Virus record (IMG/VR): IMGVR_UViG_3300048507_001041
Coordinates: 1-44,550 of that record
Origin: a virus
DNA length: 44,550 bases
Strand: one strand, 5' to 3'
Each line of letters opens with the position of its first letter. Within the stretch, counting starts at the first letter, position 1. Shown here piece by piece: positions 15,577 through 40,900 of the stretch. The translations under genes were made by a program, and so were the position numbers. Under the pieces are notes generated by a model. It saw nothing but the letters and a program-made list of their open reading frames with translations, was not told where the DNA came from and did not search any database.

Positions 15577-15577
15577 T

Positions 15578-22310: not shown

Positions 22311-25300
22311 CTATTCGTTGTACGACCCACCCTCGTTAAAAATAACAGGGTGATGAGGCGGCCTAATAGATAAATCTTTTTCAATGTTATCAAACTTATC
22401 TACATTATATTGTAGAGCTTGAATACTAAATAATCCATCAGAATCTTCTGTAATGTTTATAACTTTGTATTGTTTCTTTTCTGCAAAGTTTACAGAATCT
22501 TCCATCATAAAAGTTGTTCCGTCTGAATCTTTTAGTTTCTTTAAGTAGTCGTCTTCAACAAAAGTTTTTTGCAATATGTAATTGCTTTTTAAATGGCCAG
22601 ACATATGCATCCATTTTCCGTGCTTCTTAAGATCTTCAGATCCGCTTGCAAAAATAAAGTTACCTAATTTACTCGGATTATCTGCAGAAACATTCCAAGG
22701 ATTTTTTGGTAAATCTGTTACGATATTTTCGTCTTCGTCTTCTCTGTCGGTTAAAAGAGGATCAGTAAATTTAGGGAAATCTTCGGCCCATCCATTTTCG
22801 TATTCTATGAAATTATCACCACAAGAAGACGAACCTACCCACAATAAAGCTTCTGGATCTGGTTTTTCTCTATTGTATCCACCCAGCCACGCTGTTTTAT
22901 CTTTAGGCAAAACGATGGACATAAGGTCTTGGGCGACATCATCTTCTATCACAGCCATTTGTCCACTTCTTGTTTTTGCATCTCTTAATGCTTCTAGCCA
23001 AGTAAAGTCACCTTCGACAAACTCATAAATGTTATTATATAACTTCATCGTTCTGTCGTCTTCAGCTATATCGTAAACTAAATAATCGCCCACTTGCGTA
23101 GCTCGCATGCTATCAATCTTTTCGTCAGTTACATCTGTATCAGAATCTAAAGATGCTATAGTTTCATTTCCTGATGGGGCATAAAGTGTTACATTTTTCC
23201 ATGTTTCTTTGTCGTATGGATCAATGAAAGAATGGATAGGGTAGTCAGCCAGTACTTCTGCATTTCTTCCTTGTTCATCTACCTTGATATCTAAAGCTTT
23301 TCCGGCAAACCTACCTACTGTTCTTTTATTATCTAATACATCAATCACATCTCCTGGCTTTAGATAAGATCCAAGCATGCTGGTTTTGAATGATAGAATT
23401 TCTGTTTCTAGATTGGCACTCTTGACTACAAATTCAGCTGCCCGCTTTGCTTGAGCTTGCGATGTTATTCCGAACCCATCAATACTCTGCTCGATCATAT
23501 TATTCTCTTTGACAGCTTCTCTATCTTCAGCTCTTTCTATTTTCGGGCGATACATATTATATCTGTCAACATACTTAATATTGCATGAATTAGTTCTAGA
23601 TGTTTTTGGCGTACTAGAATAACTAAAACCTTCTTCAGATATATTATTATTAGAGAATAACATAACTGACTCTTTCTTTTCGTCTTGGAAAAAGTTGATT
23701 GCACCTCCAGACCAATATGCAAACGATCTAAAGATGGCGGCAAATTCGTTAATTAATTTAAATGCATTTTCTTGATTCATTATATATGCATTTAAGGTAT
23801 ACCTTGGCTCGACTAGTGGATAATCTATTTGAACTGCACACTCAAATTCTTGAGTTTCTGGCTCATATTCAAGCACAATAGTGCGATTAACTTTATTAAC
23901 ACTATGTATTCTTATAGAATCATATGTTGAATCATTATAAAAGATCGCTAACTGTTTGCCTGAATAATTAAATTCGGAATTAAAGGATTCGTTGGAATCT
24001 ATTCCTTCTATTTTGAATTGAGGTTTATCACCTGAGGATCCGTCTCTGGTTAGTTTTCTTTTTTTATACTTTGGAGAATAACCGCTTGGCACATATTCAT
24101 CACAATATTTTGCAATTTTATACAATGTCCATCTATCTATATTCTCTTCTTTTATGCCAAATTTACCTACGCCGAATCTTTTATTAGATATTAAGTCGTA
24201 AAGACACCATGCTGGGTTATCAGTCCACTTTAGATCTGGACTAAAATCACCACTCCAATTGCCTTCATACTTTCGAGTTTCTGGGTCATAGTTAGTGGGA
24301 ACTTGTACCTTCTTTAAACGCATGTTATATGTTCGCTGTGGCATATTAGGCGAATCTTTTGCGTTAATTCTGGTTCCTACAATTACTGAATTTGGATAAT
24401 TTAATTGAACAGGTGTTATTTCCGTTACTGATGCAAGCGACATTTTTTCTTTATATCTAGCTGCTTGTTCACCTTCTTTTACAAAATTCCTTTCCCTGTT
24501 AAGTTTATAAACTTTTATAGTCCTATCTTTTTGGTCAGGATTGGGTGGCAAATATATTTTTACATCTTTCCTGTAGGGAGAAGTAGCAATTCCGTACATA
24601 TAAACATCAGTAGAATACAGAACTTCACCTTCGTTTCCATATTTTATTCTAAATCTTGCTTTGTTAGGCCAAAGTTCTCCTGAGTTTTCTACTTTTGTTC
24701 CTATTTTAAACCTATGACTACCCAATACAAAAGATAGTATTAATCCAAGCACACCAACCAGAACCCCAGATGCGATACCGCCTGCGATAAAAGCTGCAGC
24801 TTTAATAGGTTCTGTTGATGCTACAGCACCCGATACCGCACAAGCTCCTGCATTAGGGAAAGGTGCCGCACATGCGACAGCAGCACCACTGGCAATTGTG
24901 CCTTGAGTTGCCGCAGCACCACCAAGGGTTACTCCTTCTTGTACTCCTTTAAAAATTTGATACACACTCAATGCTGCAAGCAAAAATGTCCAGAGTTTTC
25001 CAAGCTGATACTCAACCTCAACTTCATCTCCTTGATAGACATACGCTAATTCATTAACTTGTAAAGTTATATATGCTTCTTCTACTAAAGGGTTAATTAT
25101 TGTATGCGATAAATAATTTTCCTCATTGAATCTTCTAAGCTTTATGTCGTCAAAATCAGACTCATCAACATTTTTAAATAATTCAACCTTCTCACCCGCT
25201 TCATCTGTAATATCGTCTGGAGTATTAATAGTTATCTGATTCCATAAATCTTCTGCTAGGTCTGCAGTACCACCAGGTGTTATATCGATTTGAGATTCTA

Positions 25301-27557
25301 CGACATTTTGCGGGAAATCAAAAGTTATAATAGTTTCATTAACGGCTCCCCCCTCGGGTATTTCACCACCTTCAGGAACATCAACGAATGTTGTTTCAGT
25401 TACCTTAACTTGTCCATCTTCTACTCCTGGAATCTTGTCAGGATTTAGCAAAATAATCATTGGGTCATTTGCATAATTTGAAAATTCGTCTTCGTAATAT
25501 GACAAACCGCTTGCGAATTCCGCTAGACTTTTTCCTTCTCCCGCATCATTTCCTGTGATAATATATAAATCTGAGTTTGAATTTGGTCCGCCCCTAGTAT
25601 TTTCTTTTAGCAATAAATAACCTTGCTTTCCGTCGTAATTTTTTTGTTTACTATGAGTCCCCAAAAATTTATCAGAGTTAACTCCCATTTTGTAGTAACC
25701 CATCGTATAGTCAAATTTTTTACACCTTACCTTATCTCCTTCCTGGTACTGTGCGGTGTCAGTTACATATTCTCCGCTAAATTGTTTATATTCATTTAGT
25801 CCTTGATCTGCTTTGTAAAAAGTTGCACTTTCTGGCTCACCAACATAAATAATGGAGTTGTTCTCCATGTTTTCAGCATCGTATGTATAATCGCCGCTTT
25901 CAATAAAAGCTTCGTTGTAGCTGTTCTGCACACGATAAATTTGTCCATCGTGTTCTACATAGTCTCCCTCTTCGTAGGTAGAGGATGCACTAAATGGAGT
26001 AGAAGGTACTGAATTTTTAAGGGTTTTTGAGTCTATAGTTCTTGGTCCATATAAATCTCCGTTTACATCCTTCGTGTATGATGTAAATAAATATTGAGGT
26101 TCTAGTAGGGATTGATCTTCCGTACCTATATGACCTTCGCTATTGACCCCTAAATCTATATCAAATTCGTTTATATTATATGAATCTACTCCTCCTTCTA
26201 ATTCTGATTCAAAAGATATTTCTTTAACCGGCGTACCATCAAGAAAAACACCTTGTAAATAATCATTTTTTGCATTCCTTAAATCCTCAGGGTTTCCTTC
26301 GTTAGCTTTATACTCTCTATCAAATACAGCTAGTTCTCCATTTTTATTTGAAAAACCATCTACAGGACCTTCAGATACTAGGTCGATTGATTTGTAAACT
26401 GATGTAGATTCTAGCTTAAACCATCCTACTCCGTTGGCTTTTGAAGCACCTCTCCATCTTTCTCCAACTTGTATCGGGTATGCATTTCTTGGGTTGTCTG
26501 TACTTTGATCTCCATGAAGGTATTCAAGGGGATCTTCACTAAACATTATTGGGTAAAATATTTTAGCTTGATTATCATTTTCTTTAAGGGGAATGCTTTG
26601 AAGGCAAACATAAGAGCTCTTGATGGCATTTGCTTCTGTTACCGCATACCTCATTCCCTCTATATCACTTAATGGATTTGGGTACCAATTACCGTTTGGC
26701 CCAAAGTTTCCAAGGAAATTTTTATTAACACCTTTAGCATAATTAAAAGTATAATAGTAATACCCGCCAATAGCATCTCCTTTCTTTTCAGGCATAGTAA
26801 CAAATCTTGCTTGCTGATTTTGTAGAGATTCAAACCCTCCATACAAACCATCAGTGGCTCCAAATTCTCCATCAGATATTTTTTTTACTATTTCTTGAAA
26901 TGCGGGATCTAGAAAAGCATACTTACTACTTCCATCAAAAACATTCAAGGCAAAACAGGAATATAATGGGCCCAGATCAACTCGATAATGCTTATGATAA
27001 TGAGGTATTAAGCTATACAGTCCCTTGCTAAAGTTAAATATTTTCCCCGTTTCTGAATTGTAATCATAGTTAACTGTGCATGCAGAAACAACATTCGTTC
27101 CGATGTTGAGTTTTCCATACCCTAGAGGTACATTTTGACCTTGCGTGAACCTATTCTCTTTTCCATTATACATGTATGATTTGGTCTGGACCTTTAGGGT
27201 CTCATCATCTCTTTCCATGGCTTCAGCCATTTTCTTGGATATATACATGCTGGCTGCAGTAGTTATTGCAGTTATAATCAAGCTAACAGCGAATCCGCCA
27301 CTACCTTGAGCTATTGGAAAAACGTGTAAATCTTTTTCTGTAGACAGTAAAAACTCTTTGTTTTCTGTAAAGCCTTGTTCTCCGGATTTTTTTATTCCAT
27401 AAACAACACCCTCTTGCTGTTTTTTATTTAAATATTTTTCTACTTCTGGATTATTTGCAAAGATTGCGGCGATAGCTTCGCCCGGGGAACTTACATTGAG
27501 ATCCCATGTCTTTCCAAACCTTTTACCTAAGGCTCCGTGTAGATATACCTTTTTCAT
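22311..27557 (-). CDS. Fused lambda I-J tail tip protein with C-type-lectin domain
   Basis: A 1748-residue central tail-tip protein. Residues 1-115 match lambda gpI: YLHGALGKRFGKTWDLNVSSPGEAIAAIF and a Gly-rich hydrophobic end (GSGGFAVSLIITAITTAASM). From about 125 (FTQGQNVPLGYGKLNIGT) the J-like hub begins. Two Y-x-(E)-G-D-x-V modules (near residues 520 and 605) resemble chitin-binding type 3 repeats. Residues about 855-945 are a long Ala/Gly-rich hydrophobic stretch. The conserved J core lies around 1370-1460 (QAQAKRAAEFVV...LKPGDVIDV). Residues about 1500-1665 have a C-type-lectin layout: FTWLEALRDAKTRSGQMAVI, AWLGGY, LLWVGSS, KWMHMSGHLKSNYILQ. It probably contacts the receptor. It ends one base from the convergent rightward operon. 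Confidence 0.9.
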   Translation of the reverse strand: MKKVYLHGALGKRFGKTWDLNVSSPGEAIAAIFANNPEVEKYLNKKQQEGVVYGIKKSGEQGFTENKEFLLSTEKDLHVFPIAQGSGGFAVSLIITAITTAASMYISKKMAEAMERDDETLKVQTKSYMYNGKENRFTQGQNVPLGYGKLNIGTNVVSACTVNYDYNSETGKIFNFSKGLYSLIPHYHKHYRVDLGPLYSCFALNVFDGSSKYAFLDPAFQEIVKKISDGEFGATDGLYGGFESLQNQQARFVTMPEKKGDAIGGYYYYTFNYAKGVNKNFLGNFGPNGNWYPNPLSDIEGMRYAVTEANAIKSSYVCLQSIPLKENDNQAKIFYPIMFSEDPLEYLHGDQSTDNPRNAYPIQVGERWRGASKANGVGWFKLESTSVYKSIDLVSEGPVDGFSNKNGELAVFDREYKANEGNPEDLRNAKNDYLQGVFLDGTPVKEISFESELEGGVDSYNINEFDIDLGVNSEGHIGTEDQSLLEPQYLFTSYTKDVNGDLYGPRTIDSKTLKNSVPSTPFSASSTYEEGDYVEHDGQIYRVQNSYNEAFIESGDYTYDAENMENNSIIYVGEPESATFYKADQGLNEYKQFSGEYVTDTAQYQEGDKVRCKKFDYTMGYYKMGVNSDKFLGTHSKQKNYDGKQGYLLLKENTRGGPNSNSDLYIITGNDAGEGKSLAEFASGLSYYEDEFSNYANDPMIILLNPDKIPGVEDGQVKVTETTFVDVPEGGEIPEGGAVNETIITFDFPQNVVESQIDITPGGTADLAEDLWNQITINTPDDITDEAGEKVELFKNVDESDFDDIKLRRFNEENYLSHTIINPLVEEAYITLQVNELAYVYQGDEVEVEYQLGKLWTFLLAALSVYQIFKGVQEGVTLGGAAATQGTIASGAAVACAAPFPNAGACAVSGAVASTEPIKAAAFIAGGIASGVLVGVLGLILSFVLGSHRFKIGTKVENSGELWPNKARFRIKYGNEGEVLYSTDVYMYGIATSPYRKDVKIYLPPNPDQKDRTIKVYKLNRERNFVKEGEQAARYKEKMSLASVTEITPVQLNYPNSVIVGTRINAKDSPNMPQRTYNMRLKKVQVPTNYDPETRKYEGNWSGDFSPDLKWTDNPAWCLYDLISNKRFGVGKFGIKEENIDRWTLYKIAKYCDEYVPSGYSPKYKKRKLTRDGSSGDKPQFKIEGIDSNESFNSEFNYSGKQLAIFYNDSTYDSIRIHSVNKVNRTIVLEYEPETQEFECAVQIDYPLVEPRYTLNAYIMNQENAFKLINEFAAIFRSFAYWSGGAINFFQDEKKESVMLFSNNNISEEGFSYSSTPKTSRTNSCNIKYVDRYNMYRPKIERAEDREAVKENNMIEQSIDGFGITSQAQAKRAAEFVVKSANLETEILSFKTSMLGSYLKPGDVIDVLDNKRTVGRFAGKALDIKVDEQGRNAEVLADYPIHSFIDPYDKETWKNVTLYAPSGNETIASLDSDTDVTDEKIDSMRATQVGDYLVYDIAEDDRTMKLYNNIYEFVEGDFTWLEALRDAKTRSGQMAVIEDDVAQDLMSIVLPKDKTAWLGGYNREKPDPEALLWVGSSSCGDNFIEYENGWAEDFPKFTDPLLTDREDEDENIVTDLPKNPWNVSADNPSKLGNFIFASGSEDLKKHGKWMHMSGHLKSNYILQKTFVEDDYLKKLKDSDGTTFMMEDSVNFAEKKQYKVINITEDSDGLFSIQALQYNVDKFDNIEKDLSIRPPHHPVIFNEGGSYNE
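22328..22352. terminator. Hairpin at the convergence of the two operons
   Basis: CACCCT-C-GTTA, loop AAAA, TAAC-AGGGTG: ten base pairs with one bulged C. It starts 19 bases past the stop of the rightward operon and lies inside the last codons of the I-J gene. No U-run follows on either strand, so it is not a classical intrinsic terminator, but it is the only strong hairpin where the two transcripts meet. Confidence 0.35.
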
Positions 27558-27575: not shown

Positions 27576-28301
27576 TTACACTAAAGATCGGTGCCTGTAT
27601 GCTCCTTTTATTTTTGATTGCCATCGACTATCGAGCATATCTTTCCTGGAGATACTGTGCCCGCATTGATGAATAAAATAATCATCACCAAGGTAAATGC
27701 CCACATGCTTTCTTCCGTTTTTCTTTATTTGAAACACCAGTATATCATGCTTTTTAATATTCTGTATTTCTACTCTATCGGTATTTCTATTTAATATATC
27801 AATAAGTAGCTTATTAGCTTCTTGATCTGATTCTGTTAACCAATAGTTTTTATTCCATTGCGTTATATTGATATTTAAATTTTTAATAAAATAATCTTTT
27901 AACAAGCAAGTGCATTCATGGAAGCCTTTGATGTATGGCCTGCCTATTAAACTATCAGGCTCAAAAGATTCGGGGTAATAAAGAAAAAACTTCTTTGTAA
28001 TTAAACTATATATTAAATAAGGTATACCAGATTCTTCAGAATTAATAATATCTTGCTCTGATGGATTTTCGTCTGAAAATGGATGAGTATGATAGATTCC
28101 CAATAGATTATATTTAACTTGATAAGTTATTAATTTTTGCGGCGATATAGTAAAAGAATTTACTGGGTCAGGATTAATATTATTTTCTTGTTTTATTTCA
28201 ACAGAAAGATCGGGGCATAGTAAAACTACCCCGCAAACTTCTTGATCTGGTTTGCTTTCGGCATGAGATATTATCTTATCATGAAAATTATTTAAACTCA
28301 T
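27576..28301 (-). CDS. Lambda K-like tail assembly protein: JAB/MPN peptidase plus NlpC/P60 hydrolase
   Basis: A 241-residue protein with the two domains of lambda gpK. Residues 1-115 are a JAMM metallopeptidase with E21, H71-T-H73 and the exact x7-S81-x2-D84 spacing. Residues 120-241 are NlpC/P60: GRPYIKGFHEC130 (catalytic Cys), KHVGIYLGDDYFIHQ (His) and a trailing GAYRHR. The JAB domain may process a tail protein and the NlpC/P60 domain cuts peptidoglycan peptides during assembly or entry (family knowledge). It sits between the L-like and I-J genes, as in lambda, overlapping L by 14 bases. Confidence 0.93.
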   Translation of the reverse strand: MSLNNFHDKIISHAESKPDQEVCGVVLLCPDLSVEIKQENNINPDPVNSFTISPQKLITYQVKYNLLGIYHTHPFSDENPSEQDIINSEESGIPYLIYSLITKKFFLYYPESFEPDSLIGRPYIKGFHECTCLLKDYFIKNLNINITQWNKNYWLTESDQEANKLLIDILNRNTDRVEIQNIKKHDILVFQIKKNGRKHVGIYLGDDYFIHQCGHSISRKDMLDSRWQSKIKGAYRHRSLV

Positions 28302-29322
28302 AAGGGTCTATGCCAGGAAAACCTCCGTAAGGTAATCCATTGTTTAGTTCCGTCCAACTAACATCTTCTTCTAGATTATTCGCTTGCATTCTAAATCCAC
28401 CCCCAGCTTCAATAGCGTGATCAGAAAATCTAAGTCTACAGCCACAAAGTGTCTTATCGCAATCATCGAGAGTCCACTTCTCTCTATCTAAGGCAGGATG
28501 CGATCTGGCATTATCTTGTGTGCAAACATAAATACTGACGGGGTAAATAGCTTTATCATCGTCAAATGGTTCTATTCTGACAACATCTCCTTTATTATAA
28601 GTTCCTGTTCTTGACCACACAGGGTACTCATCCTCTTCATTTTTTTTTCCAAACTCTGTCGCACCGTATTCTGTTGGAAAATAAGAATCTTCTCCGACCA
28701 TTTGACCTGAATATCCGCTAGGAACAAAACGCTTGTTTTTATCATCAGATACAGGTTTACCTCTGTAACCGCACCCAATATCGCTTCTATACTGCCACGA
28801 GCAATAATTAGAATACATTGTTCTTGATGGAATGCTTGCGTTTTGAAGCTCAAGCAATGAAACCAATTCAAACTCTACAATTTGATCGGTCTCTGCTACC
28901 TTTTGATTAACAAAGAATATATCTTCAGTAAAAGAAACATCGGGGCTTGATTCCGCGTGAGGGTTAATATTGTTTGGAAAGTTTTCTTTGTCGAGATATT
29001 TTACAAAAGTTTTTATCCGGGTGACTTTGTAGTTAATAAAATCCTTAAAAATTCCTAAACGCAAAGAAACATTCCCTTGGTGGTTAGAAAAAGTCATCTT
29101 TGGCCTTGGTAATCTTCCGTCACCATGCATCTCAAATCCCTCCGTCTTAATTGGCATAAAGTCATAATTCTCTCCGTTGAATATTATTCTTTTTTTATAT
29201 CCATTTTCTCCGGCATGAAATAAGTATTGCCCTCGATCTCTTAAATTTATTTTATAAAGAGATACAATTGTTGAGGGTTCAATTTGAAATATTTCTTTTA
29301 CGTATGCTTTTGTGTCTCTCAT
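28288..29322 (-). CDS. Lambda L-like minor tail protein with inserted carbohydrate-binding-like module
   Basis: A 344-residue homologue of lambda gpL (usual length about 230). The N-terminal part is clear: EGFEMHGDGRLPRPKMTFSN, TRIKTFVKYLDKENFPNNINP, VEFELVSLLELQNASIPSRTM. Lambda gpL has four C-terminal cysteines holding an iron-sulfur cluster; here C174, C184, C288 and C295 fit, with the last pair as C-x6-C. Between C184 and C288 are about 80 extra residues containing VWSRTGTYNKGDVVRIEPF ... YVCTQDNARSHPALDREKW, a chitin-binding type 3/CBM5-12-like module. It forms part of the tail tip connecting tube and hub. Confidence 0.9.
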   Translation of the reverse strand: MRDTKAYVKEIFQIEPSTIVSLYKINLRDRGQYLFHAGENGYKKRIIFNGENYDFMPIKTEGFEMHGDGRLPRPKMTFSNHQGNVSLRLGIFKDFINYKVTRIKTFVKYLDKENFPNNINPHAESSPDVSFTEDIFFVNQKVAETDQIVEFELVSLLELQNASIPSRTMYSNYCSWQYRSDIGCGYRGKPVSDDKNKRFVPSGYSGQMVGEDSYFPTEYGATEFGKKNEEDEYPVWSRTGTYNKGDVVRIEPFDDDKAIYPVSIYVCTQDNARSHPALDREKWTLDDCDKTLCGCRLRFSDHAIEAGGGFRMQANNLEEDVSWTELNNGLPYGGFPGIDPYEFK

Positions 29323-30464
29323 GTTGCTGATTTAATTTGTTCTACTTCATAATCTCCTCTATCGCAAAGAAATATATCTATATCCACTAAATTTCTTGTT
29401 TTAAAAAAGACTGTTTGATTTGACATTATTTCAATATTATCTCCAGCTTCATTGTCGATCATAAACCCAGTATATCTATCACCTTCAAATTCTAGCTCAA
29501 TGATATCTTCTTTTTTAATAGATGAACTAAAATTTATAATGTCACTGTATTCAAAAAATTTATCTACTTCTGTATTGAAAAGTGTTTCCTTGGTATCGTG
29601 TTCGTTTCTATGCATAATTCCCGTGACAATATCAAAAAGCAATGTCAAAGAGCCTGTGATACCCCAATCTCCATTCTGTGAAATCCATTCAGTTCCATAT
29701 AAGCCCCCATAACTTTCAATAGCCCCACTTAAACCTGAATACCAGTTTTTAATTGAATACCTTCTATTGGGGTTACTGTATTCCAGTGTATCTTTTTTTA
29801 ATAAGAAAAATTCATTAACTATATCAGGAAATTTAATTAATTCAATATCTGAAGCTTCAAAGTTTTCTTTGTTGTCCATCCATTGAGGTAACCCTTTTTC
29901 TTCGCATAAAAATTCTCCTGTCAAAATAATTTGAGGTCTGCAGCTATCTCCATCTTCGCAATTTAGTATAGGAAACCCAGGTTTAATTTTGACATAGGAT
30001 CCGAATTGATCACCTGTTCTGTTCAATATTGTGCTGGAGTTTCCAGACATTAACTCATCGTAAAGTGGATGAAAAAAGGTATGTATTTGTTTTTTTTGGT
30101 CCGGCTCTAGGGTAAACGGTAACTGCTCTATTATTCCAGAGTGATAAACTTTAACTCCAGTATAATCTGGGAATTTAAAAAGAGAGAATCTTTCAGGATC
30201 AGTCATTTTAAATCCAGTGATAGTTAAAGGCATTGTGCAAGAATTTGAAATGGTAAAACTACCTGAATCAACAGCACTTTCTCTGCATAAGTTTTTGCAT
30301 TCTATCCCATCACCTTCTTTTTCCTCTGTTTCAATTTTTATAAAAAGACCGCCTTCAGATTGAGTCAATATATCATTTTCTTCTTCTGATACATATTCCC
30401 TTTCGTCTATATTTGGTAATGACGAAAATTTTATATTATATTTATCTGGATCTATAAAGCTCAT
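29319..30464 (-). CDS. Tail protein with Ig/ASH-like domain
   Basis: A 381-residue protein between the M-like and L-like genes, coupled to both by 4-base overlaps. Residues about 54-185 contain SGSFTISNSCTMPLTITGFKMTDPERFSLF, the beta-strand pattern of ASH/Hydin-like Ig folds (F-x-I-x-N-x-C...P-L-x-I-x-G), with several cysteines (C55, C60, C76 and others) that could pair. The remainder is not recognised. Lambda has no gene at this place, so it is an extra structural component of the tip, perhaps a side fibre or adaptor (inference). Confidence 0.7.
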   Translation of the reverse strand: MSFIDPDKYNIKFSSLPNIDEREYVSEEENDILTQSEGGLFIKIETEEKEGDGIECKNLCRESAVDSGSFTISNSCTMPLTITGFKMTDPERFSLFKFPDYTGVKVYHSGIIEQLPFTLEPDQKKQIHTFFHPLYDELMSGNSSTILNRTGDQFGSYVKIKPGFPILNCEDGDSCRPQIILTGEFLCEEKGLPQWMDNKENFEASDIELIKFPDIVNEFFLLKKDTLEYSNPNRRYSIKNWYSGLSGAIESYGGLYGTEWISQNGDWGITGSLTLLFDIVTGIMHRNEHDTKETLFNTEVDKFFEYSDIINFSSSIKKEDIIELEFEGDRYTGFMIDNEAGDNIEIMSNQTVFFKTRNLVDIDIFLCDRGDYEVEQIKSAT

Positions 30465-33400
30465 CGATTAGTTATTCCGTATCTTACTAAATTTTCAGGA
30501 TCTTGAGTTACTTCGCTGGCATCTTCACTCCCGTCTTTTAAGTCTCCGTTTTCATCTCTACATTCAGTTGGAACCCATACTCCTCCCTCTAATTTATAGC
30601 AATAATCATCGGGCATATTTATTAATATTCCATTTTCGTCTCTAGCTAAAGTATTTCTTAAACATTCTATCTTGACTCTTCCGTAAGGCCATTTGTGCAT
30701 ATTGGATTCAGAATATAAATTAATTCGATTGAAGTGATCTTTATTTCTTATGCCGTATTTTTTCCAAAAATTATCTATACTATTACCATCTTCATCTTTA
30801 TAATCTCCGGCAGCTCTATCCCAGTCAGGGAAATACGGGGCATATTGTGACTGACGCCATATACTATTACTCAGCATAAATGGTCCGATGCAATCAAAAG
30901 CTATATTGCCCGGATTGGAGGCAGTACCGCTCCAAAATTTTACACGTGTAGTGGTGTCAACAAATATAGAATCAAATGTTGTTCTTGTTGCATTTGGAGT
31001 TATTTGGGCCAGGGTACTCTCAACACTGTCAAAATTGTCACCCCCAATAATATCCGCAATATGCAAAGCTCCAGCATGTGTCTGAAACGGAGGAATAACT
31101 GCGAATGGGGCACTTGCATTTGGTTCTATTTGCAAACCTCCGCTAAAACAAACACGGCAGCCTGGACCAATAACAGGTGGAGCATTTTCTGGAATTTCTA
31201 AAATTGAATCTTCGGCCATTTTAAATTTAGCCAAAAATTCAAACCTAGCATAACAAGACATAGTCTTATCTTCCAGATCTTCAGTATAAAAAAGTAATTC
31301 GACAGATTCTTGAAGTTCATTTACATTTCCTATTCTTAATCCAAAGAATAAATCTATGCATTCTTCCATTTTCAGGATAGGTAAATGGTCATAATTTCCG
31401 ATAAAATCGTTAGCTTCATTTAAATCAGAAACATTATAATCTAAAATTTCTAATTCTTTATTTTTTCCAAAAACTTTCAAAGGGAATCCGTTTGATACAA
31501 CTCCCGCATTTTGTGATCCCTTGGTTTTTATTTCTCCAGTCGTTATTAAATCTGTTTGAATCAATTCGTTTGATTCTGTTCCGATTATGTCGCCAGCGTC
31601 AGTCGCAATCAAAAAAGTTTCTTTATCAGGTCTCCATCCTCCGTTTATTTCATGTAACTTTCCATCTCTATATACTTCATATTTAGTATTAAAAGAATGC
31701 CATAAGGTGTTTGAGTTCTCATCCTCAAACATTTTTTTATTATTAGGGTCATTAAAATATTGCCCTCCATTTCCCGGGATGGTCCAATCAATTTGATGAG
31801 TTCCATCCATGGTTTCAATTTTTTCAAAATTATTATTTTTTGGAACTCCTGCACTTAATTTTTCAGTTGTCCATCCAAGAAATCCACTACTAGATTTTGT
31901 GTTAGCTATAATGTTTCTTAGTTTTATATCATTTGGTCCACAATTTTTTATTGTTACTGAAAAAAGATTTTGAAATCCTGAGTCTTGAGTTACATTGGAT
32001 AAAACTTTAGAGAAATTAATACACCTCAACGCTTCCCTTGACCCAGGAGAAGTATTACTAATTTTGTAATTCATCTCTAATTCTTTTTTTCGTTTCTCTA
32101 AACTATAATCTTTAGCGTATTCATAAAAAGAAGAATCGGTATTACCTTCTCCTGATAAACCTAATGAAACAGGGAAGATTAATGTATCAACTTCATTTAA
32201 ATACCATGCAGGGTTAGATTTTTCTTCGTCTTCAAAATTACCTCCTTCAGAGTAATCTGGATTAAATAGATAAGAATACTGCTTGTCTGCATTAAAACCT
32301 TTCCAAGAAGGAGCATAAGAAAATTCCTTTAATTTTTGGGTAATTAATCCATTTGCATATTTCGATAAAATTGAATCTTTTGGTCTTCTTTGAGATAATT
32401 CTTTTCCACTTCTTATGTTATCGTTAATTTGTTTTAACCCGGATTCGTTTGCTCCAGAAAAATTAAAATCAGATATCAAGAAAATCATTCTTTGGTCTAC
32501 TGATTCTGCTCTTTTGCTATTATAAAGTTGAGCCATAGCATCAGCGATAGTTTCTAAAGAATTTTTAGCACCATGAAATTCTGCATCTATATTAGAAATT
32601 TTTTCATATACAGTTTTTTTATCGAAACATGTCGGGTAGTCATTTAAATCTAGTATTCTTTTTTCAGTACCTGGATATTCATTTATAGCAAGTGTACCCA
32701 TAAAGGAGAATCCTACATTAATATTTTTTTCTTCTAATTTTAGATTAAACCTGAAAAAGTTGTCAGTATCGTAACCGCTTTCAACAAGTGCTTGGTAAAA
32801 ATCTTGTTCGCTTTCAGGATCTTTATCGTAAATCAATTGCCCATTTTCATCGTAAAAATTTGGCCAAGGAGGTGAACCATCAAAATCGGGGTCTCCACTG
32901 ACATCAATCGCACCATTAAAACTTTCAGTTAAAGGAAATTTGCTCTTATCATAACCAACAATCGATTTCAATATTGAATCAATGATTAATGCATACTTGG
33001 ATTTATCCAAATCAGATATACTTAAAAACTGTTGCCTTGTAGAGGGAGAAGAGTCAATCACAAAAATAATATCTATTTCTTTATTTTTTGCTTCTATTGA
33101 GTAGCTCTGATTTTGAGAGTCGTAATCCAAACCTGATTGATGCTTTGCAATCCCTACAGAAGAGAATGTGCACATCTCATGCTGAGTAATAGGATTATAT
33201 ATATATGCCCCAAAGCAAGGACCCTTTGGGTTAGCAAGATCTTCCTGTACAGCCGTTGAAGATTCTATAAAAGTTGCAGAAATTGTATGATTATTCTTAT
33301 ATACAACTTCGTGATTCCAGCTTGGGCAATAGAAAGTAGAATTGTGAGGTCTCGATTGAGTTGTTAATGGATCTGCGTCAGTTCCATAAGGTCGAGGCAT

Positions 33401-35707
33401 AACGAATCTAAATTTTTTATAACCAAGATGAGATTCTAAAAATTGTAATATTTCCGCTGCTTCAGTATCATCTCTTTTATCAAATACAACAGTGAACGTA
33501 GACATATTTTGATTAATGCCTTTTTTGTATTTTTTATTGTAAAATTTTGTAAACTCTGTATTGTAATGTTTTGGCTGGTTATTTATATTAAATGCAATAC
33601 TAGGGCGATGCTCAAAATTTCTCACTTGCAGCCATGGGTATTTTGCCGTAAGCTCAGGATTCTCCATGTATATACTACTTCTACCAGTAACTGCTGGAAT
33701 TAAGATTTGCCCGTCATCTTCAGGTTTTAAACTAAAACTAGACAGTGGAGTAACATACAGAGCAAAACTGGAAGGAGTTATATCAGCTTCCATTTGAAGC
33801 ATTCTGTAATTTTTTAAATATATTATTCTTTTTTGCTCTTCTCCAGTTACTGGATTTTTAATTTTGTGAGGAATAATTCCATCCTCAATAGATGGCGGCA
33901 AAATAGGTTGAGCCGCTAAACAATCTTCAGGACACATACCGAGCTTATAGATAACAACAGGGGCATCTCTTTCTTCGCTTAGCCTGCTAATTTTTTCTAA
34001 AGTTTCGTCATCTTCAAGTGGATTATCTTGATCGTTTGTGATCGGGTCATATGGCCCAACATTATGAGGATCACCATTTGGCTGTAATCTAGAATCGAGA
34101 ATTATTTCTATTATTGGTTCGTCTAATGGCCATTCTAGCCCCGGACAAATCTCTTTCGTATATGTAATTTTTTCTATGTATCCTTGTCCGACACCAAACA
34201 CGAAAGTTCTTGGATTAATCACCTTAAATACTTTACAAACTCCAACCGAATATGTAGAGTTTTCAGGCCATTCAGGTCTAATGTACAGACAATTACCAAC
34301 CTCTAGCTTTTGCTCTTCTCTAAAGTAAAGTATACCTGCCTTCGGGTAGCCATTTTCGTCGTAGGCATATGCTTCAATTTCTGACAAAGAAGTTAGAGCT
34401 ACTGTTTTTTCATCATCATCGTCTTGCGATTCTCCTGATTTTTCTTGAGCATCTTCTCCTATAAATTCCTCTACCGGGAATGAATCTAATCTGGCTATTT
34501 TCCCTTTTTCAAAAAATGTTTCTTCGTTTACAAAAACCGGAAAAATGGCGTCTGTATTGCGATTATATCCAGCATTACTTTCTACACTACGAAGGGTGCT
34601 TTCTGTATTACATATAAACTTAGCTTGTATAGAATTATTGTTCCTGTATGTTATAGAATGAGAAAAATCAGTACATGTATATTTTAAATCTTTTCTATAG
34701 GGAAATGTATAAGTAAAACTAAAATCTTGTACATCACTAGAAAGCAACCTTTCACCTTTATAGTCTAATCCAAAAATAGATCCATAAGGAAAATGTTTTT
34801 CTTGCAAGAAATGTATAATAGCTTTCGCTTCTTGGTCGGTTCTATTATTAAAAGATAAGTCGATTTCAAGAGGCAAAGAATTTATAGCTAAATTATTAAC
34901 ATAATCGCCGCCTTCTCCTAAAACCATTGACTCGTTTATCGCCGCAAAAGTTGCCTGCGATCCATAAGATGGCCGCCATTCAAAATCTTGAGTCCAGTAT
35001 CTTAAATAATTTGGTTCATTATTTACAGCGGAGACATGATCTTCGGTGCAATAAAAAAATTGACCTAGGTTATAAACCTCAACATCACGAAATTCGAATC
35101 CACCAGTATCATATCCATAGAGAAAAATAAACGCAGATCCGTATGCTGCATTTTGAGGTATATCATTTGGATGTATGTCAATCTGAGTCTTATACCATTC
35201 TCTATGATGAAGCTCAGAAGATGCCATAGCCCTTTGTATCTTTCTATGTCTAACATCTTCGATTAAATCCATCTTTTCGTCATAGAATTTAAGCCCAACA
35301 CCAACCCCTGTAGACTTTGACTTATCTAAACCGTAATCTTCTATTTGAAAATATGTTAAATTAGGATCATTTAATGTTGAATCCTCGCTGATCTTTCTGA
35401 TCATTACTTTTGCTGAGTACCCTATGGTAGGATTAAGTTTAAATTTTATACCATATTCTATCTCAGCAGTTTCCCTGACAGTGACTCTTTCAAAAAATTG
35501 ACTGAACTCGGTTACATCCAGCTCAACCTTTCTTGACTGATCTGTTATAATTTTGTTGCTGCAATCATCAACAAGTGTCAATAGTAAATCAACTTTTTTA
35601 TCTTCTACTTTTTCTATATAGTAAGGAGTAGAAAGGTCGCGCAGCCTGACAATATCATGCTTCTTGTATGATTTACCTGGGGCCCAATCTGATGCTGAAA
35701 TATCCAT
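30461..35707 (-). CDS. Giant M-like minor tail protein with vWA (MIDAS) domain
   Basis: A 1748-residue protein (lambda gpM is about 110). The N-terminus opens a chitin-binding-3-like module (DWAPGKSYKKHDIVRL) that is completed only at residues 217-245 (FFYCTEDHVSAVNNEPNYLRYW), with a beta-rich domain of about 185 residues in between. Two gpM-like units follow: residues about 270-370 (AKAIIHFLQEK ... CTDFSHSITYRNNNSIQAKFI) and 730-825 (AAEILQFLESHLGYKKFRFVMP ... CPSWNHEVVYKNNHTISATF). A von Willebrand factor A domain starts about 878 with IDIIFVID885SSPS889 (D-x-S-x-S) and a later strand FLISDF near 1076. The C-terminal 500 residues are beta-rich and not recognised. It probably builds an adhesive side structure at the tail tip. 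Confidence 0.85.
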   Translation of the reverse strand: MDISASDWAPGKSYKKHDIVRLRDLSTPYYIEKVEDKKVDLLLTLVDDCSNKIITDQSRKVELDVTEFSQFFERVTVRETAEIEYGIKFKLNPTIGYSAKVMIRKISEDSTLNDPNLTYFQIEDYGLDKSKSTGVGVGLKFYDEKMDLIEDVRHRKIQRAMASSELHHREWYKTQIDIHPNDIPQNAAYGSAFIFLYGYDTGGFEFRDVEVYNLGQFFYCTEDHVSAVNNEPNYLRYWTQDFEWRPSYGSQATFAAINESMVLGEGGDYVNNLAINSLPLEIDLSFNNRTDQEAKAIIHFLQEKHFPYGSIFGLDYKGERLLSSDVQDFSFTYTFPYRKDLKYTCTDFSHSITYRNNNSIQAKFICNTESTLRSVESNAGYNRNTDAIFPVFVNEETFFEKGKIARLDSFPVEEFIGEDAQEKSGESQDDDDEKTVALTSLSEIEAYAYDENGYPKAGILYFREEQKLEVGNCLYIRPEWPENSTYSVGVCKVFKVINPRTFVFGVGQGYIEKITYTKEICPGLEWPLDEPIIEIILDSRLQPNGDPHNVGPYDPITNDQDNPLEDDETLEKISRLSEERDAPVVIYKLGMCPEDCLAAQPILPPSIEDGIIPHKIKNPVTGEEQKRIIYLKNYRMLQMEADITPSSFALYVTPLSSFSLKPEDDGQILIPAVTGRSSIYMENPELTAKYPWLQVRNFEHRPSIAFNINNQPKHYNTEFTKFYNKKYKKGINQNMSTFTVVFDKRDDTEAAEILQFLESHLGYKKFRFVMPRPYGTDADPLTTQSRPHNSTFYCPSWNHEVVYKNNHTISATFIESSTAVQEDLANPKGPCFGAYIYNPITQHEMCTFSSVGIAKHQSGLDYDSQNQSYSIEAKNKEIDIIFVIDSSPSTRQQFLSISDLDKSKYALIIDSILKSIVGYDKSKFPLTESFNGAIDVSGDPDFDGSPPWPNFYDENGQLIYDKDPESEQDFYQALVESGYDTDNFFRFNLKLEEKNINVGFSFMGTLAINEYPGTEKRILDLNDYPTCFDKKTVYEKISNIDAEFHGAKNSLETIADAMAQLYNSKRAESVDQRMIFLISDFNFSGANESGLKQINDNIRSGKELSQRRPKDSILSKYANGLITQKLKEFSYAPSWKGFNADKQYSYLFNPDYSEGGNFEDEEKSNPAWYLNEVDTLIFPVSLGLSGEGNTDSSFYEYAKDYSLEKRKKELEMNYKISNTSPGSREALRCINFSKVLSNVTQDSGFQNLFSVTIKNCGPNDIKLRNIIANTKSSSGFLGWTTEKLSAGVPKNNNFEKIETMDGTHQIDWTIPGNGGQYFNDPNNKKMFEDENSNTLWHSFNTKYEVYRDGKLHEINGGWRPDKETFLIATDAGDIIGTESNELIQTDLITTGEIKTKGSQNAGVVSNGFPLKVFGKNKELEILDYNVSDLNEANDFIGNYDHLPILKMEECIDLFFGLRIGNVNELQESVELLFYTEDLEDKTMSCYARFEFLAKFKMAEDSILEIPENAPPVIGPGCRVCFSGGLQIEPNASAPFAVIPPFQTHAGALHIADIIGGDNFDSVESTLAQITPNATRTTFDSIFVDTTTRVKFWSGTASNPGNIAFDCIGPFMLSNSIWRQSQYAPYFPDWDRAAGDYKDEDGNSIDNFWKKYGIRNKDHFNRINLYSESNMHKWPYGRVKIECLRNTLARDENGILINMPDDYCYKLEGGVWVPTECRDENGDLKDGSEDASEVTQDPENLVRYGITNR

Positions 35708-36909
35708 TACCTGTAAGCCTGTCTCACGCTTGCTCTACCCCTAAGGAATCCTCCTTCGGAAACAGATAGTGCATCTTGATCAACTACACCATATTGTTCA
35801 AGTTCTTCTGGCACCGCATCAGGAAGCACTAAATTGCCCGCCAACTTAAATTCTTTCAATTTACCAAAATTATTATCAGTAAAATTTTCATCAAATCCTA
35901 TATCAGAAAGACTAATAGTGACATCAGCTCTTTGTCCTGTAATTTTTAAAAATGGATCCAGTTTTTCTCCCTCCAAGTCTATAGTGATATCTACTTCGTT
36001 TTTTGCAACCCTAACAGGAAGCTCTCCATCATCATCAGCATATCCACTGATCGGCACAGGTATCTCAGGAATTTGATTTGCATAAATGCTGTAAGAAAAA
36101 CTCAAGGGATATTGTATGCCAACACTATTCGCACCATATATTTTTGTGTTCATAGCATGAGGAACGGTTAGTTGGTTTTCTCTAACGCAAGGATAATTAT
36201 CGAATACAGACTCAGACCATCCTTCAACATATTCCATTTTTCCGTATATATCTAAATCAATATTTGTTTCTATTACTTGAAATGGTTCCGCCGAGAAAGA
36301 CATTTCAGTTAAATATGCGTCATTAAATTTATAATCACCAAGAGATCCGGTAATTTTTGTTTCATTAACTTGAGGATAAATAGTAGGATCCATTAAGCCA
36401 GTTAAATCTGCAAAAGAATGAATATTACCAGTATTCATATAATAAGTGATATTTAATCTACCCCGAATCTCTCCTTGTGCAGCATATGTTCTTAATACAT
36501 CAATTTCTCCATAAGGCACATCAGTTTCAATATCAAGAAATGTATCGCCTGTAGACCTTACCTTTATATGGTAATCTCCGGCATGAGCATCTTCCTCTAC
36601 ATACAAAGCTTGTCCGTTAGGGTATGCTATTTTCTGCCCGCTTTTTATTAATTCAACTGATGACGGAATTTTCATTCCTGGCCCACCACCTGGCGGGCCT
36701 AATAAGAAATCTTTAACTTCGACACCTTTAAATTCAACATCTTCAAACACATCGGCAAAAGAGATACTGTAGTCTTCTACAAATTTTTTAGCTTCCAATG
36801 GCTGACTAGCAGATATACTTGCTCTATTAGCAAACACCATAACTGGCTCTTGTCCTTCTGAGGCAAGTAGTAATGGTACATCTTCATATCTGTAGAAAGG
36901 TTTAGCCAT
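35707..36909 (-). CDS. Tail structural protein, function unknown
   Basis: A 400-residue, mainly beta-strand protein, acidic, with a Gly/Pro-rich loop near residue 73 (GPPGGGPGMKIP). It has no recognised domain. It is one of two medium-sized proteins between the tape measure and the giant M-like gene, and its start overlaps the upstream gene by 8 bases while its stop shares a base with the next ATG (TAATG). The position suggests a tail-tip or terminator component. The end, GRASVRQAYR, is basic. Confidence 0.7.
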   Translation of the reverse strand: MAKPFYRYEDVPLLLASEGQEPVMVFANRASISASQPLEAKKFVEDYSISFADVFEDVEFKGVEVKDFLLGPPGGGPGMKIPSSVELIKSGQKIAYPNGQALYVEEDAHAGDYHIKVRSTGDTFLDIETDVPYGEIDVLRTYAAQGEIRGRLNITYYMNTGNIHSFADLTGLMDPTIYPQVNETKITGSLGDYKFNDAYLTEMSFSAEPFQVIETNIDLDIYGKMEYVEGWSESVFDNYPCVRENQLTVPHAMNTKIYGANSVGIQYPLSFSYSIYANQIPEIPVPISGYADDDGELPVRVAKNEVDITIDLEGEKLDPFLKITGQRADVTISLSDIGFDENFTDNNFGKLKEFKLAGNLVLPDAVPEELEQYGVVDQDALSVSEGGFLRGRASVRQAYR

Positions 36910-37975
36910 TTTGTTTTTCTTTAAATTTACTATAATTTATATCATTTTCATGCGGCTTCTCACCCCTCTTATTATAATAAGATTTATACTGCAAATTTAC
37001 AGTCAATCTTCCGTCTACAGAGGCAGACATAGACTCAGCTATTAGGCGGGCATTTTTAACTGTATAATGCTGTATAGGCTCACCAAAACAATCATTAATT
37101 TTTATCGCTATGTCCTGTACTGTAGGTGTTCGCATGTATTTTCGAAGACTTTGGTATGCGTATTCATCTATATCCAAAGTAAACGATGTCTCTGTGGTTA
37201 CTGGCCATATTACATCTACCTGAGCAGCATATGCTGATCCTACTACATATATGGGATCAATAGGAATGTTTACAGAATGCTGGAAAGATGTTACCCTGTC
37301 TGTACTCGCACCAGTGCATTCAACAATAATTGAGCCCTGATTGGTTAGCCTGATTTCTGGGTAAGGATTGTCGCCAGAAGCATTATATAGCCCATTATTA
37401 TAAGATTCACTTATGGCTATCTTGTATCCCTCTTCATTGAGTACAGGGAACTCATTCTCCTGAAGTATAAAATCGGGAGAACCTCCTATGTCGCCAAAAA
37501 CTTTGATACTGGTTGAAGTAGTAGGAAGTTGACCAATGTCACAGGAAACACTATGGTTAGTTATGTATCCACTATAAAAGCCAAAATACTTTGAGCCATG
37601 ATGCATACTACCAGTAAACGGTTCATCACCTAAAAATTGTAAAAAGAAATCTTCACTGACTAAAATAGAATTTATATTAAAATCGCCTTCAAGCGGAGCA
37701 TCAAGCACTGCCATACTATGAGCAGAGCGTTCTTCTCCCCTAGCACATGTACTTTCCTGCAAGAACCTGAATCCATTTTCGTCTAATAAAAAAGCATTAT
37801 CAGCATATTCTATGTTGTCAACGCCATAATGGTAATCATCATTAACATGCCCCCATCCTAAAATATTGATGGGTCTTTCTTGTATTGCGTAGGAACCTTC
37901 TATACTTTGAACACCTGAAAGCTGTGTTCCATTAATAAAAAATTGTTGCTCGTATCCTAAAACTGTACCATTCAT
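36902..37975 (-). CDS. Tail structural protein, tube-fold-like (putative)
   Basis: A 357-residue beta-rich protein. The N-terminus, FINGTQLSGVQSIEGSYAIQERPINILGWGHV, and later DAPLEGDFNINSILVSEDFFLQFLGDEPFTG and FYSGYITNHSVSCDIGQLPTTSTSIKVFGDIGG, have the order of strands seen in tail-tube-type proteins. A second similar half follows (SFQHSVNIPIDPIYVVG ... LDIDEYAYQSLRKYM). Two tube-like halves are typical of trimeric or hexameric tip rings such as distal tail proteins, but this is inference. It starts on the last base of the tape-measure stop (TAATG). Confidence 0.6.
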   Translation of the reverse strand: MNGTVLGYEQQFFINGTQLSGVQSIEGSYAIQERPINILGWGHVNDDYHYGVDNIEYADNAFLLDENGFRFLQESTCARGEERSAHSMAVLDAPLEGDFNINSILVSEDFFLQFLGDEPFTGSMHHGSKYFGFYSGYITNHSVSCDIGQLPTTSTSIKVFGDIGGSPDFILQENEFPVLNEEGYKIAISESYNNGLYNASGDNPYPEIRLTNQGSIIVECTGASTDRVTSFQHSVNIPIDPIYVVGSAYAAQVDVIWPVTTETSFTLDIDEYAYQSLRKYMRTPTVQDIAIKINDCFGEPIQHYTVKNARLIAESMSASVDGRLTVNLQYKSYYNKRGEKPHENDINYSKFKEKQNG

Positions 37976-40900
37976 TAACTAAGTTCTCCACCTATTCTTT
38001 TCTCCTCTCTGATAACCTCAAGAACCTTTGTTTTAATTTTCATGGCGAGTTTTTGTTCTTGCTCGTAAGAACCTTCGCTTGTTTCAGTAGATACCTTTTC
38101 CCTTCCGTTTTGATCAACGGTAACATTTACATTAATGTTGTTAGTAACATCATTATTTGTTGTATTGCTAGAAGCATTATTAGTGCTTGGTTGCATTGCA
38201 TCGAGCATAGGCTGTAACCTGTTTACAGGACTGCTTGATGTCTGAGTTTTTTGTTGAGGAGCTGTGGATATTCTTGGTGCTGTTGGAGTTGTTCCAACAA
38301 TTCCGCCTTGATAATATCCTTGTTCTCCGCGTTTAAATCCTTCTGGGTTTTGCATCGCAAACCGCATCATAGTAGGATTTTCTCTTAAAAGTTTTTCAGT
38401 AGAACTTTTTCGTATTACGAAATCACCTTCGCTTAATCCAACTGGCCCTACGTTATCTATCCCACCTTTGCCTTTTACTACTGGAATTTGTCCAGTTGTA
38501 TTCATTTTGTTGAGATTATCGTAGCCAATTCTTCTTGCAATTGGTTCAGGTATCACAGCTTCTCCAGCTGTTAGCATTGCAGGTATGCTTCCGCCATTAG
38601 CTTTTTTAAGTATTTCTGTTTTTGCATCTAGTTGATTATTCGATGCAAATTGTCTCATAGCCTGAGTTCTTACTTTTGTTGTGTTGTAAAGATTCAGAAC
38701 TTTAGCTTGCTCCGCTGGACCCATGTCTTGAATGTCAGACAACCTATTCATATTAAATGCTGCATAATCACCAGCATTATCTTGCGGCATATAAAAAAGA
38801 TTGCCTTGTGGCCCTTGGTAAAAACCTTTGTTTCCAGATTTTTCAAATGCAGACATTGATTTTTTGAAATCAGAATAATTTAAGTTTTGACCCCTGAATT
38901 TAGCTTCAGCTTTTGCTTGTGTATACTGATCGCCGTACTTACCGAAAACTTCTCCGGTTTTATTAGACACTCCTTGTACTAATTTTTGTACAGGCTCTCT
39001 GAGTATGTTTGTAACCTCAGACATCATGAAACTAGTAGCAGCACCAAGAATTGTCCCTAAAGTCTGAAGTCTTTTATTAAACTTTTCGTTTTTCTTCTGT
39101 GCGTTATATGCGGCCTTGTCCAGTAAAAATTCCTTATAGTCTTCCATGACTGGATCTGTAGCCAAAGCTTTACCGCTAAGCCTAGGGTCACCACTCTTAA
39201 GGCTTACATCGGAGCCAAGATTAAGTCTCTCGAGTCTTTTCATATCAAAAGTCGGCGGCTTATCTTGTTTTTTATTGATTGATTCTCCAATTCTCCGACT
39301 AACCTCTGACATTACGACAGTTCTTGCGACACCTTCCATTCCTGCTTGTAATCTGCTTTTTTTAGGTTGTGCACCTTGCCCGCTTGTGCCGTTATTAAAA
39401 TATTGTAATTCGCCGCCTCTAACTAATTCTTTGACTCTTTCTTTAGGGATGACATACTCTCCAGCTGTTAGCATTGCTGGAACTCTATCTACTCCAGCTG
39501 GCCCTTTTACGAAACCTCCCTCTGCAAATTTTTGTATTATTCCACCTGATTGATTTAATACTGCTTGTGGGTTTTCTATCACTGGTTCTGGTTTAATATT
39601 CCCACTTGTTACTAGTTTATTATCAAATGTTTCTAAATTTTGTCTTGTCTTACTGATAACTGAAGAAAAAGAACTAAGCTCTTGGTTGGTTGAGCTTATT
39701 GCTGAGGTTGTATTTTCATAATTTTGTTGCTCGTTTTTTAGTTTAATAGAGTACTCATCATGTTGTTTTGCATTATTAGCCATACTATCTTTTGCTACAT
39801 CAGCATTAATAGCTACATCTTTATATACTTTGGCTAAATTTTCAGTAACTCCTAAAAAATTTTGAATTTCAAGAGTTGATTGCTCTTTGATCTTCATGAA
39901 CTTTTTAATATTCATCTCGCCCCAGTTTTTAGGACTTTTTGGATCTCCTTGTCCTTTAAAGTAACTAACCTCTCCAATTTCAGGAACCATCCCCCGAGTC
40001 AATATATTTGGAACGGATTTAGGATCTGTTCCTATTTTAAAATTCTTTTGAAGCTCTTCTATGTTATTTATATTACGTTGTTTGTCTGATTGTATTGTTT
40101 TATCAATACCTTCTCTGAAGGCAAACTCGACACCTTCTGCTATACTTTGCCTTTCTTTGTCTGTTCCTGTTTTGCTGTCGTATTCTATATTAAGTTTATT
40201 GAGAGCTTCCCTTCTTTCAGGCGTCATATTTAAATCAGAAATTTTAGATTCAAGGTGGCGAATATTGCCTAAGCTTTCAGCTTGAGCTTGTTTTAATTTT
40301 CTTAATTTCGGATCCCTATGCTTTGAAATACCCGATGGCAGAGTATGGATGGCATCTGGACTATATCCAGCATCAGCTAATACTTGATTGGCCGCCCTCC
40401 CTCGACCTCTTGCTGTTTGCTGTTGAATTAGAGTCTTATTTTTAATTAGTTTTGAAGTATCTCCGGTTGGATTGAAATCAGTTGTATCTTGACTATCTTT
40501 AGTTTGCTCTATTGATTCATTTTTCCTACTAGAGACATCTAGTTTTACAGCATTAGAGAATTCGGCGACTTGTCTTGCCAGATCTTGTATGCTTTTATCA
40601 AACACAGCCATCTCCGAAAGTTTTGAATCCATACTTGGAGCATTAAGACCTATTCCTTTTTGTAATTCTTGCTGCAAATCCTTAGTGTGCCCCCCTAGGG
40701 ATTTAAGTACTCCTTCTAGTGAACCCATAGCACTGGTTAAATGATTATTTGAGCCTGCAATCTTTTCGGCATCAGAACTTCCATCTTCTCCTGTAAAAGC
40801 ATATGTCAGATCCTTAATAATCTTGTCGATATTATGCTCCATTACTCTATCAAGAAGTTGCTCTGCTAGTCCTAAACTAAAATCACTCCATGCTTCTTTT

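Follow-up and report, generated by a model that had tools for sequence, protein, structure and literature searches.

The window analyzed here, a 44,550-base IMG/VR virus record (IMGVR_UViG_3300048507_001041), encodes on its minus strand a distal tail protein of the lambda gpM type, M-vWA (hereafter M), in which two tandem gpM-like units precede a von Willebrand factor A (vWA) domain. Comparison of its sequence with those of related contigs shows that this domain, or head, behaves as a recombining cassette on a fixed gpM socket. The reading that we favor, and hold to be somewhat probable, is that M equips a constant tail-tip ring with a replaceable head for host contact, one attachment part next to the tail protein gpJ; the swapping of the domain between related phages suggests that it helps in holding hosts. 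The open reading frame (ORF) at 30461–35707 stands where a first-pass annotation, made from the DNA letters, had placed it; it lies on the minus strand, begins with ATG, and encodes 1748 amino acids.

Sequence evidence places M among the lambda-type distal tail (gpM) proteins and shows two gpM units in tandem. The Pfam family Phage_min_tail matches residues 698–815 above its cut-off (E = 9.9e-12; 45.6 bits vs. 39), the same unit matches the PHROG 14 minor tail protein (1.2e-13), and comparison of family alignments by hhalign matches the two gpM stretches to each other (probability 97.7, E = 1.5e-12). Genes on the minus strand run in the order tape measure candidate, tube1, tube2, M, a 381-residue protein, gpL, gpK, and gpJ, which is that of the lambda tail tip, with M in the operon position of gpM between upstream genes (named for tube and tape measure solely from where they lie) and L, K, and J. 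The first-pass annotation had described gpM-like units ahead of a vWA domain in a lambda-type tail protein; both the placement in a tail-tip operon and the units, the further one at about residues 225–385, were borne out. For lambda, the threefold ring that joins tube and tip is described as built from six copies of gpM, which adopt two conformers (PMC10721106). Because M carries its gpM units in tandem, three chains would plausibly make up the corresponding ring, as against six gpM in lambda; these tandem units would join tail tube and tip, each chain sending outward its vWA/integrin I-like head, with the conserved region and the variable C-terminal module after it. A distant group of relatives (L015–L018; L-numbers label the loci or contigs of relatives, L020 and L001 being on the same contig) has a short M, of 321 residues in L015–L017 and incomplete in L018. 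In L015, both parts of this protein match the gpM stretches, the first part weakly (E = 0.005 and 0.043), and the protein ends there; the short M of this group leaves no room for a vWA domain and looks like a "bare socket."

For the region that follows the gpM units, the fold assignment is carried by a structure model and structural alignment, sequence searches having given no clear answer. The Pfam VWA family (PF00092) reaches 18.9 bits in the window, under its gathering cut-off of 23.8; matches at E up to 0.1 were obtained for 12 of 19 members (best 1.7e-4), below the cut-off wherever bits were shown. A profile search of PDB with the 19-sequence vWA alignment returned nothing at E ≤ 1, and comparison of the region with PHROGs gave only weak, scattered matches. 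A link to phrog_6305 ("tail protein") was dropped: three of 20 members matched it, at E = 0.011 at best, and none of the four records searched gave a match at E = 1e-3. An AlphaFold2 model of residues 868–1262, built from 20 sequences (14 of them below 90% identity), attained a predicted TM score (pTM) of 0.75 and a mean predicted local distance difference test score (pLDDT) of 67.6, ten-residue blocks of the core falling mostly at 65–90 and the long insertions below 50; a first run over residues 820–1500 with seven sequences had been rejected at a mean pLDDT of 39.7. By this model and by structural alignment with VIA-align, the region has a doubly wound, Rossmann-like fold with a central parallel sheet, the best match being the integrin alpha2 I domain (Z = 16.2 over 189 residues at 2.5 Å). 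Other I domains, collagen VI, TRAP, vWF A, and SpaC fall within about two Z units of this best match, and 474 of the 979 aligned chains reach a Z of 8 or more. Foldseek gave as best solved structures Toxoplasma MIC2 (E = 6.0e-4, the only one at E ≤ 1e-3), integrin I domains, CMG2, and factor B; among the viral structures of BFVD, no match to the model was found at E ≤ 1e-3 (best 3.1e-3). The matches listed by both structural searches are mostly vWA or I domains. In vWA domains, the motif I aspartate ends the first strand and the motif III aspartate directly follows its own strand; the model shows this arrangement, D885 closing the first strand and D1080 coming directly after the strand at 1072–1079, which holds FLIS. 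Relatives carry textbook motifs (VDIIFIIDTTGSM...VLSDG; in L002, VDIIFIIDTTGSM and RLIIVLSDG). An integrin I-domain fold is, on this modeling, nearly certain for the region, and the vWA domain claimed by the first-pass annotation, which had proposed a fold comparison by Foldseek and would have yielded to a fold other than Rossmann-like, is upheld.

A vWA domain was found behind gpM in 25 IMG/VR contigs. The 26 vWA sequences (window plus 25 contigs) represent 22 different proteins, which were used for trees, and 14 lineages below 90% identity, which were used for conservation; L029 and L036 are incomplete at the 5′ end. From an alignment motif, chosen before trees were built, the 22 proteins divide into two head types, SDG (13 rows) and SDF (nine rows, including the window). 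The vWA tree recovers this split with support of 100/100. The tree of residues 1–690 rejects it (log-likelihood 74.4 worse; approximately unbiased test p-AU = 3.0e-13), as do tube2, L, and K together (136.7 worse, p-AU = 2.8e-6) and, weakly, the second gpM unit (gpM2) alone (p-AU = 0.033). One close pair, L023 and L036, combines 99% identity in gpM2 with 31% in vWA; in 20-residue steps, their identity passes from 95% at 841–860 to 17% at 861–880, and DNA homology ends at nucleotide 8987 of L023, at the gpM2/vWA junction, resuming at 11945 in the next gene. L021 and L038 share gpM2 with L023 and L036 at 95%–97% and carry a third head. Across all 231 pairs, gpM2 is at least 95% identical in 21, and in five of these (five pairs from four contigs) vWA identity is below 50%. 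All relatives are uncultured contigs, for which chimeric metagenome assembly might produce an artefactual cassette pattern; such an origin is highly improbable, given that gpM2 and vWA lie in one open frame in 25 contigs, that four contigs with gpM2 at 95%–99% identity bear three different heads (L021 and L038 sharing one), and that the conflicts for L006/L022 and L024/window come from other contigs.

Similarity in the conserved region after the vWA domain tracks the head more closely than gpM2 does (correlations of 0.97 vs. 0.82 over all pairs). L012 and L014 have otherwise near-identical M genes, 95%–99% identical in vWA, and are 28% identical beyond a second exchange point at about residues 1490–1525. 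The end module of M in L007 shares 45% identity with the C-terminal end of the next-gene product of L002, a resemblance which indicates that end modules also move between genes. The M protein of L013 (L013:10001–17590) reaches 2530 residues, with a C-terminal extension of about 850 residues unlike the others. A diversity-generating retroelement behind the variable C-terminus was considered and dropped, as no reverse transcriptase was found in any of the five records searched, all of them fragments.

Both the exchange of the C-terminal module alone in L012/L014 and the match between L007 and L002 favor a different account of the head, in which the vWA domain serves the architecture of the tip by docking tip or fiber proteins (for example, the next-gene product or gpJ) and host binding falls to the C-terminal module and gpJ. 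vWA domains in general are protein-interaction modules, and the window and L001 combine the same vWA domain with different gpJ. Further, several positions of the head are invariant in the 14 lineages, unlike the serines of its metal ion-dependent adhesion site (MIDAS): PPW at 946–948, FDK at 1028–1030, NS at 1063–1064, RRP at 1107–1109, NP at 1149–1150, and WY at 1168–1169. However, a purely structural domain would be expected to share the phylogeny of the tail proteins around it, and vWA conflicts with gpM, tube2, L, and K; between the window and L024, L021, L006, and L007, vWA is 30%–44% identical where gpM is 63%–75% identical. On these data, a structural docking role, the chief alternative to host contact, is possible but rather doubtful.

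A surface module that is exchanged while its tail socket stays constant is typical of parts that contact the host. From this exchange, taken together with precedents for vWA domains in tails, we infer host contact: by analogy, an adhesive role of the vWA head is likely, and the head would be a host-contact module passed between phages as a cassette on the fixed gpM socket. This evolutionary behavior also lends support to the first-pass suggestion of an adhesive device at the tail tip. Several observations weigh on the other side. Long branches in the trees were flagged by the program, for which reason close pairs were compared as well, and head and socket similarity still correlates over all 231 pairs (r = 0.82). 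vWA domains also serve in nonadhesive protein assemblies, and the MIDAS serines are not conserved within the window's own vWA type. Finally, nothing in the vWA domain distinguishes the window from L001, its 99% sister, M residues 1001–1300 (most of the vWA domain) being without nucleotide difference, while gpJ lacks DNA homology between the two over about 700 residues (approximately 200–950). It is thus gpJ, and not vWA, that differs most between these phages, and this comparison leads us to regard the vWA head as a part that would share attachment with gpJ.

The metal site requires separate treatment. The DxSxS pattern is present four times in M (residues 2, 128, 347, and 885), and so the pattern alone is no proof of a MIDAS; the fold supplies independent support for the last of these. 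In the window, D885, S887, and S889 follow the first strand, and the motif III aspartate, D1080, is Asp in 14 of 14 lineages. No threonine stands at the place equivalent to motif II; S1050, at the start of a predicted helix, could replace it, though the 14 lineages have S, Y, V, I, L, D, H, or A there, and L024 and L006 have a threonine one position after it. In describing the MIDAS as intact, the first-pass annotation went too far. Its three motif I residues are at the positions it gave, and FLISDF starts at residue 1076, near where it was placed; motifs I and III are accordingly present by sequence, whereas motif II is at best a serine. DTTGS and LSDG are found in 13 of 13 SDG rows. Within the SDF type, DSSPS occurs only in the window and its near-identical sister L020 (two of nine rows), and the remaining seven rows read DGSAA (twice), DANPS, DGDPI, DGGPS, DSNGS, and EAGEG, all without one or both MIDAS serines and one also without the first Asp. 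Counted over lineages below 90% identity, Ser or Thr at both serine positions together with both aspartates is kept in six of six SDG lineages and one of eight SDF lineages, so that the metal dependence proposed in the first-pass annotation is unsupported as stated.

These counts bear on a stricter form of adhesion, in which Mg2+ or Mn2+ held at D885, S887, S889, S1050, and D1080 would coordinate an acidic residue of a host surface protein in the manner of integrins. Such a metal-dependent adhesin would accord with the intact motifs I and III of the window, with the retention of DTTGS and SDG in each of the 13 SDG rows, and with the presence of integrin I domains and TRAP among the closest solved folds. 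It is less readily squared with the loss of serines in seven of nine SDF rows, with the missing motif II threonine, or with the variability of residue 1050, and we consider it unlikely for the window. Judging from its sequence, the window may bind metal, yet its lineage is not dependent on one. Across the wider vWA superfamily, a canonical MIDAS is usual; loss of the site in the SDF type is therefore more likely than gain, on a tree that is unrooted. The exchangeable host-contact head would accordingly come in two forms: the SDG type, with canonical motifs I and III, may bind its ligand via a metal ion, and the SDF type, its MIDAS mostly lost, probably binds without metal except in the window and its sister. 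A conserved face opposite the MIDAS was also considered and dropped, the difference in invariant positions (20 of 163 loop positions vs. 5 of 78 on the MIDAS side) being too small.

Pairs of vWA and MoxR proteins are reported in jumbo phages and in the archaeal virus ATV (PMC7824862, PMC7911831), which raises the alternative that the vWA domain serves virion assembly as partner of a MoxR-type AAA+ chaperone. AAA_3 (MoxR) matches below the cut-off were obtained in two of nine records and AAA_5 matches in three of nine, but AAA_3 exceeded its cut-off in none of the nine, an absence that is weak because the records are fragments. Moreover, the AAA_3 match on the contig of L001 belongs to a ClpB-like protein, and that of AAA_5 on the contig of L038 to a RuvB-like one, the remaining AAA places being an 810-residue frame in G004 and a 312-residue frame in G001; and vWA is here fused to a virion component rather than encoded by a separate gene. 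A MoxR-type partnership is unlikely, and we give an assembly role of this kind very little credence. The ClpB-like protein of the L001 contig (L062:1–2283) is a two-AAA chaperone (AAA_2, 1.2e-56; ClpB_D2-small, 2.1e-19).

In lambda-type tails, host recognition is usually ascribed to gpJ and side fibers. If an exchangeable host-contact head is indeed present, these phages would have, on the gpM ring, a second and modular means of changing attachment, and an integrin-type adhesive fold would sit at a precise spot of the phage tail, where the need for metal, and its loss, become testable. The sharp exchange point offers a natural experiment in near-identical tails with different heads. More tentatively, the distal-tail ring might itself be a receptor-reading organ, in which a tandem-gpM socket bears three exchangeable integrin I-like heads of metal-dependent and metal-independent types, recombined at a single linker and shifting host attachment independently of gpJ.

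A whole-protein search identified 15 loci, 11 with a vWA head and four belonging to the distant group without it. Among GTDB genomes, 16 stretches matched a pattern, none of which encodes a relative. Among cultured phages, the window protein drew no tblastn match at E = 1e-3, and the L005 protein matched only Erwinia jumbo phages at E = 1e-2. The Erwinia protein (E = 6e-3, seven records) was not taken as a relative because Pfam identifies an ILEI domain and no vWA in it; in Erwinia phage pEa_SNUABM_7, gp113 (L019:4522–7392) is a hypothetical protein among tail fiber genes with an ILEI (interleukin-like) match at E = 4.3e-7. In the accessible text of the literature on vWA or MIDAS in phages and on lambda gpM, no gpM protein with a vWA domain was found. 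The presence of vWA in a phage tail part is already known; within the scope searched, what is new is a vWA domain on a tandem-gpM distal tail protein, in two exchangeable types in which the MIDAS is kept or lost.

Coordinates of M, its parts, and the neighboring genes are collected in Table 1; the bounds of the vWA domain are taken from the structurally aligned range.

Table 1. Features of M-vWA and of the surrounding tail-tip genes in the window
Feature	Position	Strand	Basis or remark
M-vWA, gpM-like distal tail protein of 1748 residues bearing the vWA head, residues 1–1748	30461..35707	−	ORF, ATG start
N-terminal region, residues 1–224	35036..35707	−	Alignment of relatives; without family match of its own
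First gpM-like unit, residues 225–385	34553..35035	−	hhalign against the other gpM stretch
Second gpM-like unit, residues 670–835	33203..33700	−	Phage_min_tail 9.9e-12; PHROG 14 1.2e-13
Linker, residues 836–867	33107..33202	−	Homology lost at about 860 in L023/L036 and L023/L021
vWA/integrin I-like domain, residues about 875–1246	31970..33085	−	AlphaFold2, VIA-align, Foldseek, weak Pfam VWA
MIDAS motif I, D885-S-S-P-S889	33041..33055	−	Sequence, alignment, model
S1050, possible stand-in for motif II Thr	32558..32560	−	Suggested by position at start of predicted helix
MIDAS motif III, S1079-D1080	32468..32473	−	Invariant in 14 lineages
Conserved region after vWA, residues 1247–1490	31238..31969	−	Similarity pattern follows vWA
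Variable C-terminal module, residues 1491–1748, and stop codon	30461..31237	−	Replaced between L012/L014; no Pfam match
tube2, 400 residues, conserved upstream gene	35707..36909	−	Named by position only; without family match
tube1, 357 residues, conserved upstream gene	36902..37975	−	Named by position only; without family match
Probable tape measure protein, runs off window	37975..44550	−	Suggested by size, composition, position; without useful family match
Next gene, 381 residues, mosaic in relatives	29319..30464	−	Without assigned family
gpL homolog	28288..29322	−	Phage_tail_L 9.4e-44
gpK homolog (JAB + NlpC/P60)	27576..28301	−	Domain matches
gpJ homolog with gpI-like N-terminus	22311..27557	−	PHROG 31 1.6e-106; PHROG 32 6.1e-23

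The neighbors of M are widely retained: of 21 contigs, all have L, K, and a next-gene match, 20 have J, 19 have tube2, and 18 have tube1, the next-gene match spanning in many contigs only the first 110–180 residues. Cases of absence are contig ends (upstream in L029, L036, and L007; downstream in L030), and the neighbors stand in lambda order in those related contigs whose order was read. Additional genes include, in L008, a 1029-residue ORF between two tube-side genes (L008:3943–7032) and, in L002, a gene between M and L with an SprB repeat (L002:14508–15677; E = 1.5e-9), for which a Bacteroidota host is possible.

Outside the replaced block at about 200–950, gpJ is near identical between the window and L001, except for many differences at residues 101–200. 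Its residues 1545–1700 (window 22458–22925) appear C-type lectin-like by eye; this stretch has nothing in Pfam, and a sequence search of PDB returned only a DNA polymerase (E = 0.031). Short W/Y-rich stretches resembling chitin-binding CBM5/12 modules were likewise seen by eye in M (residues 5–20 and 215–245), gpL (about 230–285), and gpJ (522–543), of which Pfam reports only that of gpJ, at E = 0.023 and below cut-off. Elsewhere in the window (270–16663), translations read as NAD-sugar epimerase/dehydratase-like, glycosyltransferase-like, and ribonucleotide reductase genes, the ribonucleotide reductase large subunit in this other arm being backed by tblastn.

With respect to known systems, M shares its operon position and the matched Phage_min_tail domain (PF05939) with lambda gpM. 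However, lambda gpM is a single unit of 109 residues (PMC10721106), whereas M combines two units with an N-terminal region, a vWA domain, and C-terminal modules in one chain of 1748. The head itself has the fold of the I domains of integrins alpha1 and alpha2, of vWF A, of apicomplexan TRAP, and of the pilus adhesin SpaC (VIA-align Z of 14 to 16, about 175–200 residues aligned at 2.4–3.0 Å). It differs from these in its low identity (10%–16%) and large insertions, the window domain spanning about 370 residues, and, unlike integrin-type I domains, most members of its SDF type have an incomplete or lost MIDAS.

vWA domains are also known from other tails. In Bacillus thuringiensis phage 0305phi8-36, gp164 is described as a baseplate or fiber protein with a vWA domain that is substituted in relatives (PMC2147016), and it is thus alike in carrying vWA on a tail protein and in the swapping of the domain between related phages. 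That phage has another tail type, with homologs of T4 gp27 and of P2 gpV and gpJ, and gp164 is not called gpM in the available text (PMC2147016). VWA domains are also reported in the tail fibers of extracellular contractile injection systems (eCIS), where they resemble the head of M as exchangeable attachment domains on a phage tail-derived device (PMC12923769). In eCIS, however, the domain sits in the fibers of a contractile injection system and not, as in M, on the distal tail ring (PMC12923769).

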